A DNA stretch of 64,000 bases from Rhodococcus jostii NBRC 16295. Its GTDB lineage: Bacteria; Actinomycetota; Actinomycetes; Mycobacteriales; Mycobacteriaceae. Location: the NCBI RefSeq assembly GCF_001894825.1, contig NZ_BCWY01000049.1, positions 1-64,000 on the forward strand, read 5' to 3'. Under the pieces are notes generated by a model that made no database searches, was not told the origin of the DNA, and saw only the letters and a program-made list of their open reading frames with translations. A program made the translations under genes and the position numbers. Positions 3,052-8,881 of the stretch are shown here, one piece after another; position 1 is the first letter of the stretch, and each line of letters opens with the position of its first letter.

Positions 3052-4506
3052 ATGGATGCTGTCGAACTCATGCGAACCGTCCCCACCACCCTCTTCCTCG
3101 GCGGCGAGAAATGCGACGCCGAGAACGGCGCCACGTTCACCGTTTTCGACCCGGCCACCGGCGACGCCCTCACCGAGGTCGCGGACGCCAGTCCCGCCGA
3201 CGCGATGAAGGCGCTCGACTCCGCGGCCGCGGTGCAGCGGGAGTGGGCGGCGACCCCCGCGCGGGAGCGAGGGGAACTGCTGCGAGCGGTGTTCGAGAAG
3301 ATCACCGCCCGGGCCGACGACTTCGCCCTGCTGATGACGCTGGAGATGGGCAAGGCGCTGCCGGAGAGCGCGGCGGAGGTCAAGTACGGCGCCGAGTTCT
3401 TCCGGTGGTTCAGTGAGGAAGCCGTGCGCATCGCCGGCCGCTACACACCGGCGCCCGCGGGGAACGGGCGCATCCTCGTGACCAAGCAGCCCGTCGGGCC
3501 CTGTCTGGCGATCACCCCGTGGAACTTCCCGCTCGCGATGGGTACCCGCAAGATCGGCCCCGCCCTGGCCGCGGGCTGCACGATGATCGTCAAACCCGCC
3601 TCCGAGACTCCGCTGACGATGCTGCTGCTCGCCGACGTGATGGCGGACGCGGGACTGCCGAAGGGCGTGCTGTCGGTGCTGCCGACATCGAAGTCGGGGG
3701 AAGTGACCGGTCCGCTGCTCGACGACCCGCGACTGCGGAAGCTGACGTTCACGGGCTCGACCGGTGTCGGACGGATGCTCGTCGAGAAGTCGGCGAAGGG
3801 GCTGCTGCGTACCTCCATGGAGCTCGGGGGGAACGCGCCGTTCGTGGTCTTCGACGACGCGGACGTCGACAAGGCCGTGGCCGGCGCCGTCCTTGCCAAG
3901 ATGCGCAACGGAGGTGAGGCCTGCACCGCGGCCAATCGTTTCCACGTCGCGAACAGCGTGCGGGAGGAATTCACCGCCAAGCTCGTCGACAAGCTGTCGT
4001 CGTACACACTCGGTCCGGGCACGGACCCCGACACGACGCTCGGCCCGCTGATCAACGCGGATCAACTCGAGAAGGTCGGGGAACTCGTGCAGGACGCCGT
4101 CGGCGCGGGCGCGCGGGTGCGGCTCGGCGGCGTCGCGCCGGAAGGTCCGGGCTACTTCTACCCGGCGACGGTGCTGGACGAGATTCCCGCCCAGGCCCGG
4201 ATCCTGAAAGAGGAAGTGTTCGGACCGGTGGTCGCGATCGCCGGGTTCGACACCGAGGACGAGGGGATCGCCGCGGCCAACGACACGGAGTTCGGCCTGG
4301 CGTCCTACATCTTCACCCGCGATCTCGACCGCGCACTCCGCGTCGCCGACGCCCTCGAATCGGGCATGGTCGGCGTCAACCGTGGAGTCATCTCGGACAC
4401 CGCTGCCCCCTTCGGCGGCGTCAAAGCATCAGGCTTCGGGCGCGAAGGGGGCAGTGAAGGCATCGAGGAGTACCTGGACACCAAGTATGTGGCACTCGAG
4501 CCGTAA
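3052..4506 (+). CDS. gabD: NAD(P)-dependent succinate-semialdehyde dehydrogenase
   Basis: Class I aldehyde dehydrogenase oxidising succinic semialdehyde to succinate, the last step of GABA breakdown. The substrate motif [21 protein letters not shown], the general-base region SMELGGNAP (Glu near 257) and the nucleophile region [10 protein letters not shown] (Cys near 291) are all intact. The frame also has ATGs at 3031, 3040 and 3043; I took the ATG at 3052 because a GGACG lies just upstream, but this is not decisive. A closely similar paralogue is encoded at 35690-37144. Family-level function is secure; succinic semialdehyde as the substrate is inferred from the GabD-like motifs. Confidence 0.9.
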
Positions 4507-4544
4507 CGACCGCCGCCGGTGTAGGGGCAGGCCGCTTCGGGAAC

Positions 4545-4841
4545 TCAGTGACCGAGGCGGCCGCGCCCGAGGCGCAGCAACAGCATGGCGAGCGTGTGGC
4601 CTTCCTGGCCGAGCTCGTTGAACCGCTCGAGCACCTTCATCTCACGGCTGTGGACGAGACGGGGACCGCCGGACGCCATCCGGGTGCGCCCGATGAGCTG
4701 CGAGACCTCCGCGCGGCGCTTGATTGCGGCGAGAATCTCGGCGTCGAGCTTGTCGATCTCCTGGCGGAGAACCTCGATCTCGGCCTCGCTGGTGGGAACA
4801 GCGGTTTCCTTGGCGGCTGATGCGACGGTCTGAGTGCTCAT
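4545..4841 (-). CDS. aroQ: Chorismate mutase, AroQ class
   Basis: A 98-residue cytosolic AroQ-fold chorismate mutase that converts chorismate to prephenate, the branch point to phenylalanine and tyrosine. The helical core IEVLRQEIDKLDAEILAAIK (about 22-41), KRRAEVSQLIGRTRMASG and the C-terminal LLLRLGRGRLGH match the short actinobacterial type (M. tuberculosis Rv0948c), which is boosted by forming a complex with DAHP synthase through its C-terminus. Synteny with Rv0946c-Rv0949 supports the call. The start is well defined by an AGGGAG box at the right distance. Its leader holds an apparent attenuator with aromatic-codon leader ORFs (see 4917-5050), so expression is probably tuned by charged aromatic tRNA levels. 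Confidence 0.95.
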   Translation of the reverse strand: MSTQTVASAAKETAVPTSEAEIEVLRQEIDKLDAEILAAIKRRAEVSQLIGRTRMASGGPRLVHSREMKVLERFNELGQEGHTLAMLLLRLGRGRLGH

Positions 4842-4916
4842 TGGTTCGTCTCCCTCTTGTCAGAACTTGGATCGTTGTTTTGGCTCGAGTCGTTACCGAT
4901 CCAGGCTCGTTTGACG

Positions 4917-4951
4917 AAAAAAGCCCCGGATCCGGTGCGGACCTCGGGGCT
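4917..4951 (-). terminator. Intrinsic terminator in the chorismate mutase leader
   Basis: On the minus strand AGCCCCG (4951-4945) pairs with CGGGGCT (4928-4922); inside it, after one bulged A, GGTCCG pairs with CGGATC around a CAC loop. Six Ts follow (4922-4917). It lies between the leader ORFs and the aroQ start codon, so it either regulates aroQ by attenuation or shields aroQ from transcription coming from the TnpB element. The U-tract is unusually clean for this GC-rich sequence. Confidence 0.85.
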
Positions 4952-4961
4952 CGTGAGCTGT

Positions 4962-5033
4962 TCAGTTCACGGGCACCGGAGGCCGGTACCCGTAAAAAAA
5001 TCGCCACAGGGGGCGCGACGACGGTCTGAACAT
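4962..5033 (-). CDS. Candidate leader peptide with aromatic cluster (frame B)
   Basis: A 23-codon ORF starting at the ATG at 5033. Residues 9-16 read LWRFFYGY, that is Trp, Phe, Phe, Tyr and Tyr within seven codons, exactly before and into hairpin segment 1 of the attenuator. The stop codon TGA (4964-4962) follows segment 2. The weak point is the lack of a Shine-Dalgarno before this ATG. It overlaps a second leader ORF (4967-5050) in another frame; a run of seven Ts encodes Phe-Phe in both frames. Confidence 0.45.
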   Translation of the reverse strand: MFRPSSRPLWRFFYGYRPPVPVN

Positions 5034-5050
5034 GTGTACCAGTTTGCCAT
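4967..5050 (-). CDS. Candidate leader peptide with ribosome binding site (frame A)
   Basis: A 27-codon ORF from the ATG at 5050, preceded by GAGG seven bases upstream, which is a good ribosome binding site. It encodes Trp-Tyr at residues 4-5 and Phe-Phe at residues 18-19; the Phe codons lie immediately before attenuator segment 1 and the TGA (4969-4967) immediately after segment 2. It is therefore the better translated candidate, whereas frame B has the denser aromatic cluster. Only one of the two need be used. Confidence 0.5.
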   Translation of the reverse strand: MANWYTCSDRRRAPCGDFFTGTGLRCP

Positions 5051-5094
5051 GGCGGTACCTCGCAGGCCAAGCCGCTGTGACGCTGTCGGTACAC

Positions 5095-5250
5095 GCCGGT
5101 AAGTTTGATAGTTGTTAACGATTCCCCGAAGCAGTGGGATTTCCAGCTCTGACAGCACCTGCAACCGACCCAGAGGAGGGCTGCACATGTCTGACGTCAT
5201 CAACACTGGTGTGGCCTCGTTCTGCCACAGTCAGGATCACCCTGGCAGCG
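5095..5250 (-). ncRNA. Possible reRNA/omega RNA at the 3' end of tnpB
   Basis: In IS605/IS607 elements the guide RNA of TnpB is made from the last part of tnpB plus the right end, with the guide taken from flanking DNA. The last 15 codons here (…AGNPTASGNR) encode the typical end-proximal sequence and the DNA can form an imperfect hairpin around CCC-ACTGCTTC-GGG (5146-5132). If an omega RNA is made, its guide would begin near 5115-5100 in the minus direction. This is inference from the family, not seen directly. Confidence 0.3.
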
Positions 5251-6299
5251 TTCCGGTCCCGGTTGTCGGAGTGTCCGCAAGCGTGGCACCGGAAAGTGCG
5301 TTCGGCGAGTTCCAACTGCTGCTTGGCTCTCGCAAAGCAATTGGAGCACGTCATCGTCGTGTTCGCGGGCCGAACCATCACCACCTTCCGGCCCGCTCGA
5401 CGGCCGCGCTCGACCAGTTCTCGTTTAGCCGTTCCGACCGCAGCATCCGCGGCCTTACGGGCCATCGTCGACTTGGAGAGAACGCTGGGCTTGAAGTCCT
5501 CGACCGCAATCAGTTGGTGACGGTCGACCACACGTCGCGCCCAGACCCTGGCCTCGTGCAGGTTCTGGCGGGCGGCCTTCTTCCTAATTGCAGCTGCTTG
5601 GCGTTTTGCAAGCAGGTATCCCTTGGATTGGGCTTTGCCTTTCGGTCGACGACGCCGGGCCATCTTTCGTTGCGCCTTCGCCAGCTCCGCAGCGCAGCGT
5701 CGTCGGTGCCCGCGGTACGGCAGGTCGAACTCCGGGTCCGTGGTGGTCGCGGTGGTAGCAACACCCCAGTCCACCCCGATAGCACCGCCAGCATCGGGAA
5801 CGCGTTCGATCTCCCGCCGCACTACGAACGACGCGTACCAGTGTCCGAGGTTGTCCCGGTAGATGCGAACACTTGTCGGCAGCGAGGGCAACTCACGCGA
5901 CCACACCACCGGAATCGTCACGCCTTTGGCCAGAGCCAGTCTCCCGTCCACGAGGCGGAAGCCGCGGGTGGTGTACTCGACGGATGGGCGCGTTGTTTTC
6001 CGCGCCTTGTAGCCAGGTCGGCCGCGGCCCTTGACGGTGAAGGAATGGTTGAGCGACTGCCCGTACGTCCGCAACATCTGCTGCTGGGCGACCTGCGACC
6101 CGGCGCGGAGCCAGGTGTTGCGTGCTCGGGCTTCGGTAAGGAGTCTCGACAGCTTGCTGAACGACGGCTTGCCGCCCAACTTCTGCTGGTGAACGGCCTC
6201 ATTCCACAGGAACCGGCAGCGATTCCACTCCGCAATCAACGCGCGCTGCGCCGTTGCGCCAGGGCGCAACCGGTAGGTGTAACGCACGACCTCCCCCAT
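5115..6299 (-). CDS. tnpB: TnpB, RNA-guided nuclease of an IS200/IS605-type element
   Basis: A 394-residue TnpB with an apparently intact nuclease. The RuvC residues are present: Asp in GVDWGVATTA (near 176), Glu in AVEDFKPS (near 266) and Asp in DNRDRNAARV (near 349). A zinc ribbon with CSNC and CHACGH lies between the last two. The N-terminus (VVRYTYRLRPGATAQRALIAE) is typical. TnpB proteins are omega RNA-guided endonucleases related to Cas12. No partner transposase is nearby, so any movement would need TnpA in trans. The C-terminal codons double as the right end of the element. The gene is on the same strand as chorismate mutase, whose leader starts directly downstream. Confidence 0.93.
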   Translation of the reverse strand: MGEVVRYTYRLRPGATAQRALIAEWNRCRFLWNEAVHQQKLGGKPSFSKLSRLLTEARARNTWLRAGSQVAQQQMLRTYGQSLNHSFTVKGRGRPGYKARKTTRPSVEYTTRGFRLVDGRLALAKGVTIPVVWSRELPSLPTSVRIYRDNLGHWYASFVVRREIERVPDAGGAIGVDWGVATTATTTDPEFDLPYRGHRRRCAAELAKAQRKMARRRRPKGKAQSKGYLLAKRQAAAIRKKAARQNLHEARVWARRVVDRHQLIAVEDFKPSVLSKSTMARKAADAAVGTAKRELVERGRRAGRKVVMVRPANTTMTCSNCFARAKQQLELAERTFRCHACGHSDNRDRNAARVILTVAERGHTSVDDVRHVQPSSGSVAGAVRAGNPTASGNR

Positions 6300-6394
6300 G
6301 CCCGAACTCTAGCGAGAGGCACCGACATATATCCGCAACCATGCCGCCCCAAACATCCCACGGAAAGCTTCGGGAGTACCCCGGGTGATGGCAG

Positions 6395-8881
6395 ATGAAC
6401 ACTATCTCCGGCACCGCTTCTCCCCTGAGCAACGAGACGACTCCGCGCGCCGCCGCACCTGCGCGCACGGGGTCGGACGCGCTCCTCCAGGGCCTCAACC
6501 CACCGCAACGGGAAGCGGTCGTGCACGCCGGTTCTCCGCTTCTGATCGTCGCGGGTGCGGGCTCGGGCAAGACGGCGGTGCTGACCCGTCGCATCGCGTA
6601 TCTGCTGGCCGAGCGGGGGGTGATGCCCGGTCAGATCCTGGCCATCACGTTCACCAACAAGGCCGCCGCCGAGATGCGCGAGCGCGTCGCCCACCTCGTC
6701 GGCCCCCGGGCCAACAGCATGTGGGTGTCCACCTTCCACTCGAGCTGTGTGCGGATCCTCCGGGCCCAGGCGGCGCTGCTTCCCGGCCTCAACTCGAACT
6801 TCTCCATCTACGACGCGGACGATTCGCGGCGACTGTTGACGATGATCGCCAAGGACCTGAACATCGACACCAAGCGCTATTCGGCGCGGCTCCTCGCCAC
6901 GCACATCTCGAATCTCAAGAACGAGCTGATCGATCCGGAGCAGGCGAGTGCCGACGCCGACAAGGATCCGGCGGAACTGCCCCGGCTCATCGCGAAGGTG
7001 TACGGCCACTACCAGCAGCGGTTGCGTTCGGCGAACGCACTGGACTTCGACGACCTGATCGGTGAGACGGTCGCGATGCTGCAGGCGTTCCCCCAGGTCG
7101 CGGAGTACTACCGCCGCCGGTTCCGCCACGTGCTGGTCGACGAGTACCAGGACACGAACCACGCCCAGTACATGCTGGTGCGTGAGCTGGTCGGCGGAAC
7201 GGCGGACGGCGAGGACGCAGACCATCGGGTCGCCCCCGCCGAGCTGTGCGTGGTGGGCGACGCGGATCAGTCGATCTACGCGTTCCGCGGCGCGACCATC
7301 CGCAACATCGAGGAATTCGAGCGCGACTACCCCGACGCCCGCACCATCCTGCTCGAGCAGAACTACCGCTCCACCCAGAACATCCTGTCGGCGGCCAACT
7401 CGGTGATCTCCAAGAACACCGGTCGCCGGGACAAGCGGCTGTGGACCGACTCCGGCGTGGGTGAGCTCATCACCGGCTACGTCGCGGACAACGAGCACGA
7501 CGAGGCCTCGTTCGTGGCTTCGGAGATCGACAAGCTCGTCGACTCCGGCGACGCCAAGTTCGGCGAGGTGGCGGTGTTCTACCGCACCAACAACTCGTCC
7601 CGCGCACTGGAGGAGATCTTCATCCGGCTCGGCGTGCCGTACAAGGTCGTCGGCGGGGTGCGGTTCTACGAGCGCAAGGAGGTGCGCGACGTCGTCGCGT
7701 ATCTCCGCGTCCTCGCGAACGAGGACGACACCGTCAGCCTGCGCCGGATCCTCAACACTCCGCGCCGCGGCATCGGAGACCGCGCCGAGGCCTGTGTGGC
7801 CGTGCACTCCGAGCAGCGGGGCATCAGCTTCGCCGAGGCGCTGCGGGACGGCGGGGAGGGCCGGGTCCCGCTGCTGAACACACGTTCCCAGAAGGCCATC
7901 GCGGCGTTCCTCGAGCTCATGGACGGACTGCGGGTCCTCCTACCGCCGGAGACGACCGCCGTCGACGTCGTGCCCGATCAGCTCGGCGACATCGGTGACG
8001 TCGTCGAGGCGGTCCTCGAGCGGACGGGCTACCGCGCCGAGCTCGCGGCGAGCAGTGACCCCCAGGACGGGGCGCGGCTCGACAACCTCAACGAACTCGT
8101 CAGCGTGGCGCGTGAGTTCAGCTCCGACGCCCGGAACGCGGCCGGACTCGTCGATCCGCCCGAGGACGGCGACGTCGACGCCCGGGACGGCGAGCCCGAC
8201 CCCGGTTCCCTCGCCGCCTTCCTCGAACGGGTCTCTCTGGTCGCGGACTCCGATCAGCTGCCGGACAACGACGAGGGCGTCGTCACCCTGATGACCCTGC
8301 ACACCGCGAAGGGGCTCGAGTTTCCCGTCGTCTTCGTCACCGGGTGGGAAGACGGCCAGTTCCCGCACATGCGGGCGCTCGGCGACCCCGCCGAACTGTC
8401 GGAGGAGCGGCGTCTCGCGTACGTGGGCATCACCCGTGCCCGGCAGCGTCTGTATCTGACGCGGGCGGTCATGCGCTCGGCGTGGGGGCAGCCCATCCAG
8501 AACCCCGAGTCGCGGTTCCTGCAGGAGATCCCGTCGGATCTCGTGCACTGGCGCCGTGAGGACCCCGGAACGGGCATCGGCTCGGGCCACGCGATCGGCG
8601 GCGGCCGGGCGCGTGGATCGGGGTACGGCGGTCAGGGCTTCGGCGGCGGTTCCGGTTACGGCGGCGGCTCGGCAGGCACGCCGAGCTTCGGTGCCGCCCG
8701 CTCCCGCAACAACAATCTGGTCCTCGCGGTCGGCGACCGGGTCAGCCACGACAAGTACGGCCTCGGCACGGTTCTCGAGACCAAGGGCGCCGGACCGACG
8801 GCGACGGTCACGATCGACTTCGGCAGCGCCGGCAAGGTCCGGCTGATGCTGATCGGTGGCGTCCCGATGGTCAAGCTGTAG
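6395..8881 (+). CDS. uvrD1: ATP-dependent DNA helicase UvrD/PcrA (UvrD1)
   Basis: Superfamily 1A 3'-5' helicase for nucleotide excision repair and removal of stalled RNA polymerase. The 828-residue protein has Walker A GAGSGKT (about 54-60), motif II VDEYQDTNH (near 248), the QYRST-like motif LEQNYRSTQN, and motif VI VGITRARQRLYLTRA (near 676). A glycine-rich linker (about 730-765) leads to a C-terminal Tudor-like segment GDRVSHDKYGLGTV…, the RNA polymerase contact of PcrA. Synteny matches M. tuberculosis Rv0949. The ATG at 6395 gives the usual N-terminus; the ribosome binding site is weak. Transcription ends at a strong hairpin at 8892-8928. Confidence 0.95.
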   Translation: MNTISGTASPLSNETTPRAAAPARTGSDALLQGLNPPQREAVVHAGSPLLIVAGAGSGKTAVLTRRIAYLLAERGVMPGQILAITFTNKAAAEMRERVAHLVGPRANSMWVSTFHSSCVRILRAQAALLPGLNSNFSIYDADDSRRLLTMIAKDLNIDTKRYSARLLATHISNLKNELIDPEQASADADKDPAELPRLIAKVYGHYQQRLRSANALDFDDLIGETVAMLQAFPQVAEYYRRRFRHVLVDEYQDTNHAQYMLVRELVGGTADGEDADHRVAPAELCVVGDADQSIYAFRGATIRNIEEFERDYPDARTILLEQNYRSTQNILSAANSVISKNTGRRDKRLWTDSGVGELITGYVADNEHDEASFVASEIDKLVDSGDAKFGEVAVFYRTNNSSRALEEIFIRLGVPYKVVGGVRFYERKEVRDVVAYLRVLANEDDTVSLRRILNTPRRGIGDRAEACVAVHSEQRGISFAEALRDGGEGRVPLLNTRSQKAIAAFLELMDGLRVLLPPETTAVDVVPDQLGDIGDVVEAVLERTGYRAELAASSDPQDGARLDNLNELVSVAREFSSDARNAAGLVDPPEDGDVDARDGEPDPGSLAAFLERVSLVADSDQLPDNDEGVVTLMTLHTAKGLEFPVVFVTGWEDGQFPHMRALGDPAELSEERRLAYVGITRARQRLYLTRAVMRSAWGQPIQNPESRFLQEIPSDLVHWRREDPGTGIGSGHAIGGGRARGSGYGGQGFGGGSGYGGGSAGTPSFGAARSRNNNLVLAVGDRVSHDKYGLGTVLETKGAGPTATVTIDFGSAGKVRLMLIGGVPMVKL

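Follow-up and report, generated by a model that had tools for sequence, protein, structure and literature searches.

What controls the stand-alone AroQ chorismate mutase gene of Rhodococcus jostii NBRC 16295? In the stretch of contig NZ_BCWY01000049.1 analyzed here (positions 1 to 64,000, 64,000 nt in all; hereafter the window), this gene (4841-4545) and a tnpB-type gene (5115-6299), both on the minus strand, flank a promoter-like motif, a 23-codon open reading frame (ORF), a hairpin, and a terminator. An earlier note had read this region as an aromatic-codon attenuator of the trp/phe layout. When the sequence, the ORF list, and the fold were re-read, all of the features it listed were found on the minus strand where it had placed them, and comparative evidence supports the attenuator reading. 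We consider it very likely that the region acts as a conserved transcription attenuator of the ribosome-mediated kind, sensing Phe (and Tyr) via tRNA charging and controlling chorismate mutase. This view is based on the layout, a conserved promoter and codons, three exclusive helices with compensatory changes, a predicted switch codon, and the joint loss of these parts in relatives. Judged from its sequence, the element would be an attenuator of the classical type, with a leader predicted to be leaderless and an unusual breadth of occurrence (Table 1).

Two overlapping short ORFs lie ahead of the gene, both taken for leaders in the earlier note, and only the one at 5033-4962 fits that role. 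As expected for a trp/phe-type attenuator, it is short and carries codons for an end product of the regulated pathway, and it is predicted to be leaderless, with a -10 element ending 7 nt before its ATG. The second frame, which ends at 4967 and contains MANWYTC...DFFTGTGLRCP, takes its ATG (5050-5048) from within the promoter motif ATGGCAAACTGG, where many relatives read GTGGCA..., so that it would begin upstream of the predicted transcript; the good ribosome binding site credited to it likewise lies upstream of the predicted transcription start. We therefore rejected this Phe-Phe frame as the leader and regard it as very probably spurious. The motif TG[GT]CANRMT occurs within 330 nt upstream of the mutase gene in 78/80 named Rhodococcus and Nocardia loci (it is absent from L009 and L023); its usual form is TGGCANACTGG with ATG or GTG after it. 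When gaps of 5-8 nt were searched, 85 of the 95 element loci had a YANNNT hexamer whose end lay 6-8 nt upstream of a start codon in frame with the leader (59 at 6 nt, 25 at 7, and 1 at 8), although these loci are related by ancestry and the 85 cases are thus not independent observations; no YANNNT at 6-8 nt was found in this search for L244, L296, L298, L301, L302, L304, L310, L319, L330, and L331. Counterparts of the -35-like stretch, also picked by eye, read CTTGG, TTTTGC, TTTGCG, or TTGACA in relatives. In five loci from which the leader has been deleted (L015, L129, and L280-L282), the mutase gene comes directly after the motif, in support of the motif being a promoter, and two others (L120 and L128) have the motif and a short leader remnant before the gene.

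We infer the start site, translation of the leader, ribosome stalling, termination, and the response to Phe and Tyr, which would combine as follows. Transcription would start at the A of the leader ATG, allowing a ribosome to bind at the 5′ end and translate behind RNA polymerase. With charged tRNA-Phe and tRNA-Tyr plentiful, the ribosome would reach the stop codon (4964-4962) and cover segment 2, and the terminator would form; with no ribosome, hairpin 1:2 would likewise permit the terminator. If Phe or Tyr ran short, the ribosome would wait on Phe12, Phe13, or Tyr14, just before and in segment 1, and block hairpin 1:2, leaving segment 2 to pair with the 5′ arm of the terminator as that arm emerges. 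Once this antiterminator had formed, polymerase would continue into the gene for chorismate mutase, the enzyme at which Phe and Tyr synthesis begins.

The leader RNA (147 nt) has a predicted folding energy of −68.2 kcal/mol, compared with −48.4 (standard deviation 3.8) for 200 dinucleotide shuffles (z = −5.15; 0/200 as stable). In this minimum-energy fold, the start-codon region 5032-5026 can pair with the stop-codon region 4965-4959 (TGTTCAG/CTGAACA). A structured 5′ untranslated region that senses something else, riboswitch-like or protein-bound, with an incidental ORF, would use this pairing to enclose two hairpins next to the terminator, and the minimum-energy fold is indeed a closed multi-branch structure; also in its favor, CGATTT is nearly invariant at the nucleotide level in the mycobacterium-like genus g29 (CGA in 79/82, TTT in 81/82). 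Across loci, however, the leader varies from 18 to 35 codons with its start remaining in frame with the aromatic core, so that no fixed enclosing structure is kept, and the aromatic codons survive nucleotide change (TAC TTT in the R. erythropolis group). Nor does any Rfam family match: the best hit in window 4000-6500 had an E-value of 0.62, far below the gathering score, and six other loci gave none at E 1. We consider such a sensor highly improbable.

We next compared the helices of the attenuator in two alignments, A1 with 28 hand-picked cores and A2 with 97 model-selected rows across the order (95 real and 2 antisense). The 95 sources of A2 were chosen by us among the available loci, excluding redundant ones; the two antisense rows were kept in the compensatory-change counts and in the model derived from A2, and removed from the masking folds, arm shuffles, and -10 and codon counts. 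Hairpin 1:2 (4992-4983/4979-4970) can be extended with G-U pairs to 14 bp (4996-4983/4979-4966). In A1, it already had 29 cells changed on both sides versus 9.6 in shuffles (0/500), and the terminator had one such cell. In A2, hairpin 1:2 and the terminator together had 93 both-side-changed cells versus 26.8 in shuffles (0/500), spread over 21 of their 26 pairs: 11/14 in the hairpin, with 85.6% of cells paired, and 10/12 modelled pairs in the terminator stem, with 94.7% paired. This is also visible at the protein level, where WRFF is constant while later residues vary, with paired changes restoring the hairpin (L092 ..WRFFSQAPEAGA, L093 ..WRFFVRHRLPVLDN). For the antiterminator, a pairing that lay outside the covariance model used to select rows, A2 showed 33 cells changed on both sides versus 16.2 in shuffles (0/500), a control that leaves the relatedness among rows in place; examples are GGACTCCGG with CCGGAGTCC in family f14 and GGTCCGCGG with CCGCGGTCC in g29. 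The earlier note had proposed a shorter, 8-nt pairing of segment 2 with the terminator (4980-4973/4938-4931). Its complementarity exists (73.0% paired in A1, 70.1% in A2), but its compensatory changes show no excess (4 cells versus 4.1 in shuffles), and we rejected it as the conserved antiterminator in favor of the longer 4985-4967/4956-4938. The covariation foreseen for three pairings was thus borne out for hairpin 1:2 and the terminator and failed for that 2:3 pairing. With the longer pairing, the mutually exclusive 1:2, 2:3, and 3:4 helices all show compensatory changes across the order, weakest in 2:3, and a terminator predicted from sequence, with the 13 bp and six Ts described earlier (4951-4938/4934-4922, then T4922-4917), lies between the leader ORF and the gene. 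Where the earlier note had taken a lack of conservation in relatives as grounds for abandoning the attenuator, the relatives were found to keep the aromatic codons and to carry compensatory changes in segments 1, 2, and 3.

The position of the switch was evaluated by masking folds, in which the 3′ edge of the ribosome was assumed to lie 12 nt past the first A-site base, and folding was limited to RNA transcribed as far as the terminator loop. For the window, a ribosome on Trp10 or Arg11 keeps hairpin 1:2, one on Phe12, Phe13, or Tyr14 yields the antiterminator (−23.9, −23.6, and −18.5 kcal/mol, respectively), and one at the stop codon leaves the terminator alone (−22.8). Across the 95 rows, as the A site moves codon by codon from two positions ahead of the first Phe up to the second Arg, 2:3 forms in 28, 42, 91, 92, 92, 90, 61, and 42 rows, i.e., in 42/95 with the A site on the preceding Arg, 91/95 on the first Phe, and 92/95 on both the second Phe and the first Tyr position. 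With the terminator arm shuffled and the A site on the second Phe, at least 5 pairs of 2:3 still formed in 83% and at least 10 in 52%, versus 97% and 94% unshuffled, so that part of the absolute count reflects G+C content. These nascent-RNA folds suggest that the regulatory codons are placed such that a stalled ribosome frees segment 2.

Codon conservation points to the same positions. The first Phe position is aromatic in 95/95 model-selected rows (91 Phe, 4 Tyr), with the proviso that the 28 seed rows of the model also had an aromatic codon there, and its Phe is TTT in 87/91; TTT accounts for 11 of 447 Phe codons in 30 long ORFs of the window. The second position is occupied by Phe in 72 rows, Pro in 9, Tyr in 6, Ser in 4, Leu in 3, and His in 1. 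For this count, four R. erythropolis-group rows were manually moved by one base; in the masking folds they were left unshifted. In a separate list of 116 distinct leaders, the search pattern admitted at the first position nothing but Phe, Tyr, or Leu, which makes the residue count there partly circular, and seven entries (L277, L094, L278, L279, L041, L069, and L052) were later dropped as lacking a terminator or not being the element. Trp, which the earlier note had listed among the codons of the short ORFs, occurs anywhere in the leader in 19/82 cases in g29 versus 26/27 in the others; being at the wrong position in the masking folds and absent from 63/82 g29 leaders, it was rejected. On these models, the sensed codons are Phe12-Phe13-Tyr14, and not Trp.

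The preference for TTT, together with the variable second position, could also be expected if the region were a constitutive premature terminator or a translation-coupled leader devoid of amino acid sensing, whose aromatic codons reflect a T-rich sequence ahead of the hairpin. Under such a model, however, it would be difficult to explain why the first position is aromatic throughout, including four rows with TAC, why the R. erythropolis group keeps Tyr-Phe with the T-run broken, why the structural switch falls at the Phe codons, and why aromatic codons, hairpin, and terminator decay jointly. We see very little chance that it is correct.

To describe how widely the attenuator occurs, we used two covariance models, R1 built from A1 and R2 from A2. 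R1 found 28/28 genomes of the window's own genus at E ≤ 1, 25 of them below 1e-14; the exceptions are G018, with a weak match and a scrambled leader, and G013 and G019, with none that scores. In the genome of R. jostii NBRC 16295 itself, the next match after the mutase site had an E-value of 0.0014. R1 also matched 128/148 g29 genomes at E ≤ 0.01, 71/301 family genomes in 8/31 genera at 1e-4, and 48/121 order genomes at 1e-3, and R2 matched 90/121 order genomes at 1e-4, corresponding to 36/50 genera and 14/16 of the families drawn. Single family-level matches in genera g9 and g14 were discarded as other terminators. The associated gene is consistent: each of the 14 matching families has at least one fetched match before chorismate mutase, the mutase was present in 20/20 further order loci fetched at the R2 level, and in g29 it lies on the same strand 39-118 nt downstream (measured from the match to the first aligned position of the mutase) in 88/90 fetched model-located loci. 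One of the two exceptions ends with its contig (L189), and the other (L222) has a transposase-like frame after the terminator where the mutase is expected. In another fetched set, 35/40 loci were leaders before mutase, 31 by tblastn and four (L312, L315, L316, and L320) by reading the downstream frame, and the weak matches L325-L329 were rejected as leaders. At the class level, 16/197 genomes matched, 11 of them from the order. Among the five outside it, L340 and L344 precede mutase, in L345 and L347 (family f31) 3-deoxy-D-arabino-heptulosonate-7-phosphate (DAHP) synthase is preceded by leaders MQR.FWRFYGYRP.. with a terminator, and L346 looks false. Overall, the element is apparently found across the whole order, mycobacteria included. 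A broader scenario, to which we give about even odds, is that a single ancestral Phe/Tyr attenuator, leaderless and already in place when the order arose, has been passed down ever since. In most of the order, with mycobacteria among them, it would be the principal means of transcriptional control at the chorismate branch point; a copy or relative of it would stand ahead of DAHP synthase in another family; and it would sense Phe via an unpreferred UUU kept against a strong GC bias.

Loss of one part usually brings loss of the others. Of the 20 g29 genomes without an R1 match, three are 63-73% complete and had no mutase seen, and the other 17 have the mutase gene. In 4 of these 17 (L278, L279, L283, and L286), leader, hairpin, and terminator are decaying together, and the remaining 13 have lost the leader region or kept a stub of it, with the mutase closely behind the remnants of the promoter. 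Two 3.27-Mb genomes (L216 and L226) have kept the leader with poor scores.

Several observations weigh against an attenuator of this kind. In the 28 rows of A1, the antiterminator showed no compensatory change, though 83.9% of it pairs, and in A2, the same pairing slid by one column still pairs 80.7% versus 81.8%, but with only 5 both-side-changed cells. The duplex energy of the antiterminator beats mononucleotide shuffles at ≤5% in 1/28 rows, so in single sequences it is only moderately better than chance. When the terminator arm is dinucleotide-shuffled, an average of 10% of the shuffles reach an equally good fold, with 0/40 doing so in 32/95 rows only, and many relatives have weak U-tracts (GGGGCTCGTCTCT, for example). 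In 28/95 rows of the masking folds, 2:3 is already favored over 1:2 when the ribosome is two codons short of the first Phe, and for the window the complete RNA has the terminator in its minimum-energy structure at every ribosome position tried, Phe12 and Phe13 included. Since the terminator wins whenever its 3′ arm is included, the switch would have to be kinetic, with 2:3 forming before that arm is made. Finally, Nocardia (L022, L025, L027, and others) and the R. fascians group (L012, L013, L018, and others) retain a short ORF, likewise leaderless, but neither the aromatic core nor a canonical terminator; the loss of both indicates that the device is dispensable, and the retained ORF may serve another control.

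In Escherichia coli, pheA also encodes chorismate mutase activity. As far as the accessible text of PMC11802643 describes the pheA (pheL) and trp attenuators, they share with the R. jostii element a leader with pathway-product codons, 1:2, 2:3, and 3:4 hairpins, and a stop codon after segment 2. Unlike them, the leader here is predicted to be leaderless, without a Shine-Dalgarno site, the core is Phe-Phe-Tyr-Gly-Tyr, and the gene is a stand-alone AroQ mutase; the comparison with pheL at the sequence level extended to the Rfam scans above. The nearest known relative appears to be the aroR attenuator of Corynebacterium glutamicum, an actinobacterial leader with Phe and Tyr codons (Phe-Tyr-Phe) that controls an aromatic-pathway gene and is reported to respond to Phe limitation (Neshat 2014, as cited in the available portions of PMC11802643 and PMC4046766). 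It precedes aroF (DAHP synthase), whereas the gene here is chorismate mutase, and the DAHP-synthase leaders of L345 and L347 hint at a possible link. Other actinobacterial attenuators with short leader ORFs, i.e., the leaderless trpL, leuL, and ilvL of Streptomyces lividans (PMC8079986) and ilvB1 of Mycobacterium tuberculosis (PMC13236596), concern other amino acids and genes in the accessible text of these papers, and "chorismate" has no occurrence in the main text of either. A full-text literature search, with subscription papers and supplements outside its scope and absence from print thus unproven, found no description of the element. The attenuator would contradict, across an order, the statement in the accessible part of PMC1262725 that no such attenuation had been observed for actinobacterial operons of Phe and Tyr. 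The M. tuberculosis chorismate mutase is described in the available text of PMC7762937 as poorly active unless bound to DAHP synthase, and the attenuator offers a testable account of control at the RNA level. It is also a candidate Phe/Tyr sensor for engineering Rhodococcus, and its several losses provide natural experiments.

Table 1 Features of the putative attenuator and its regulated gene, with window positions
Feature	Position	Strand	Basis or remark
-35-like hexamer TTGGCC	5065..5070	-	18 nt from -10; picked by eye, unscored
-10 element CAAACT (YANNNT type)	5041..5046	-	predicted transcription start A5033, 7 nt downstream
Predicted leaderless leader-peptide ORF MFRPSSRPLWRFFYGYRPPVPVN	4962..5033	-	counterparts with core RFFYGYR or variant in the order
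Putative regulatory codons Phe12 (TTT), Phe13 (TTT), Tyr14 (TAC)	4992..5000	-	conservation and masking folds
Segment 1, 5′ arm of hairpin 1:2	4983..4996	-	compensatory changes
Segment 2, 3′ arm of hairpin 1:2; with loop 4982-4980 belongs to antiterminator	4966..4979	-	compensatory changes and folds
Antiterminator 2:3, 5′ strand	4967..4985	-	pairs with 4956-4938 in nascent-RNA fold, ribosome on Phe13
Antiterminator 3′ strand, contains terminator 5′ arm (segment 3, 4951-4938)	4938..4956	-	compensatory changes and folds
Predicted intrinsic terminator	4917..4951	-	13-bp stem 4951-4938/4934-4922, then T-run 4922-4917
Stand-alone AroQ chorismate mutase, regulated gene	4545..4841	-	Pfam, NCBIfam, and structure matches

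The product of the regulated gene matched CM_2 in Pfam (E 6.4e-12), scored above the cut-off for the NCBIfam chorismate mutase models TIGR01808 and NF005894/PRK07857, and had M. tuberculosis Rv0948c and relatives as its closest solved structures (2QBV, E 1.5e-33). A second chorismate-mutase-like frame in the same genome (G000 contig 47, 47105-47341, L082) is 44% identical and stands without the promoter-leader motif. On the promoter side, pcrA (6395-8881) is separated from the leader promoter by the tnpB gene (window 5114-6394), which has Cas12f1-like TNB and OrfB_IS605 domains. In the close relatives L083-L091, the pcrA start directly adjoins the leader-promoter side, with no tnpB between. 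The tnpB stop codon forms the edge beside the ancestral flank, and the opposite edge abuts GTGTTCAT, possibly the target. On the gene side, a second conserved inverted repeat, GGATCGGTAACG..CGATCC (window 4902-4869), lies between the terminator and the mutase ribosome site, and is common to Nocardia and partly to the R. fascians group.
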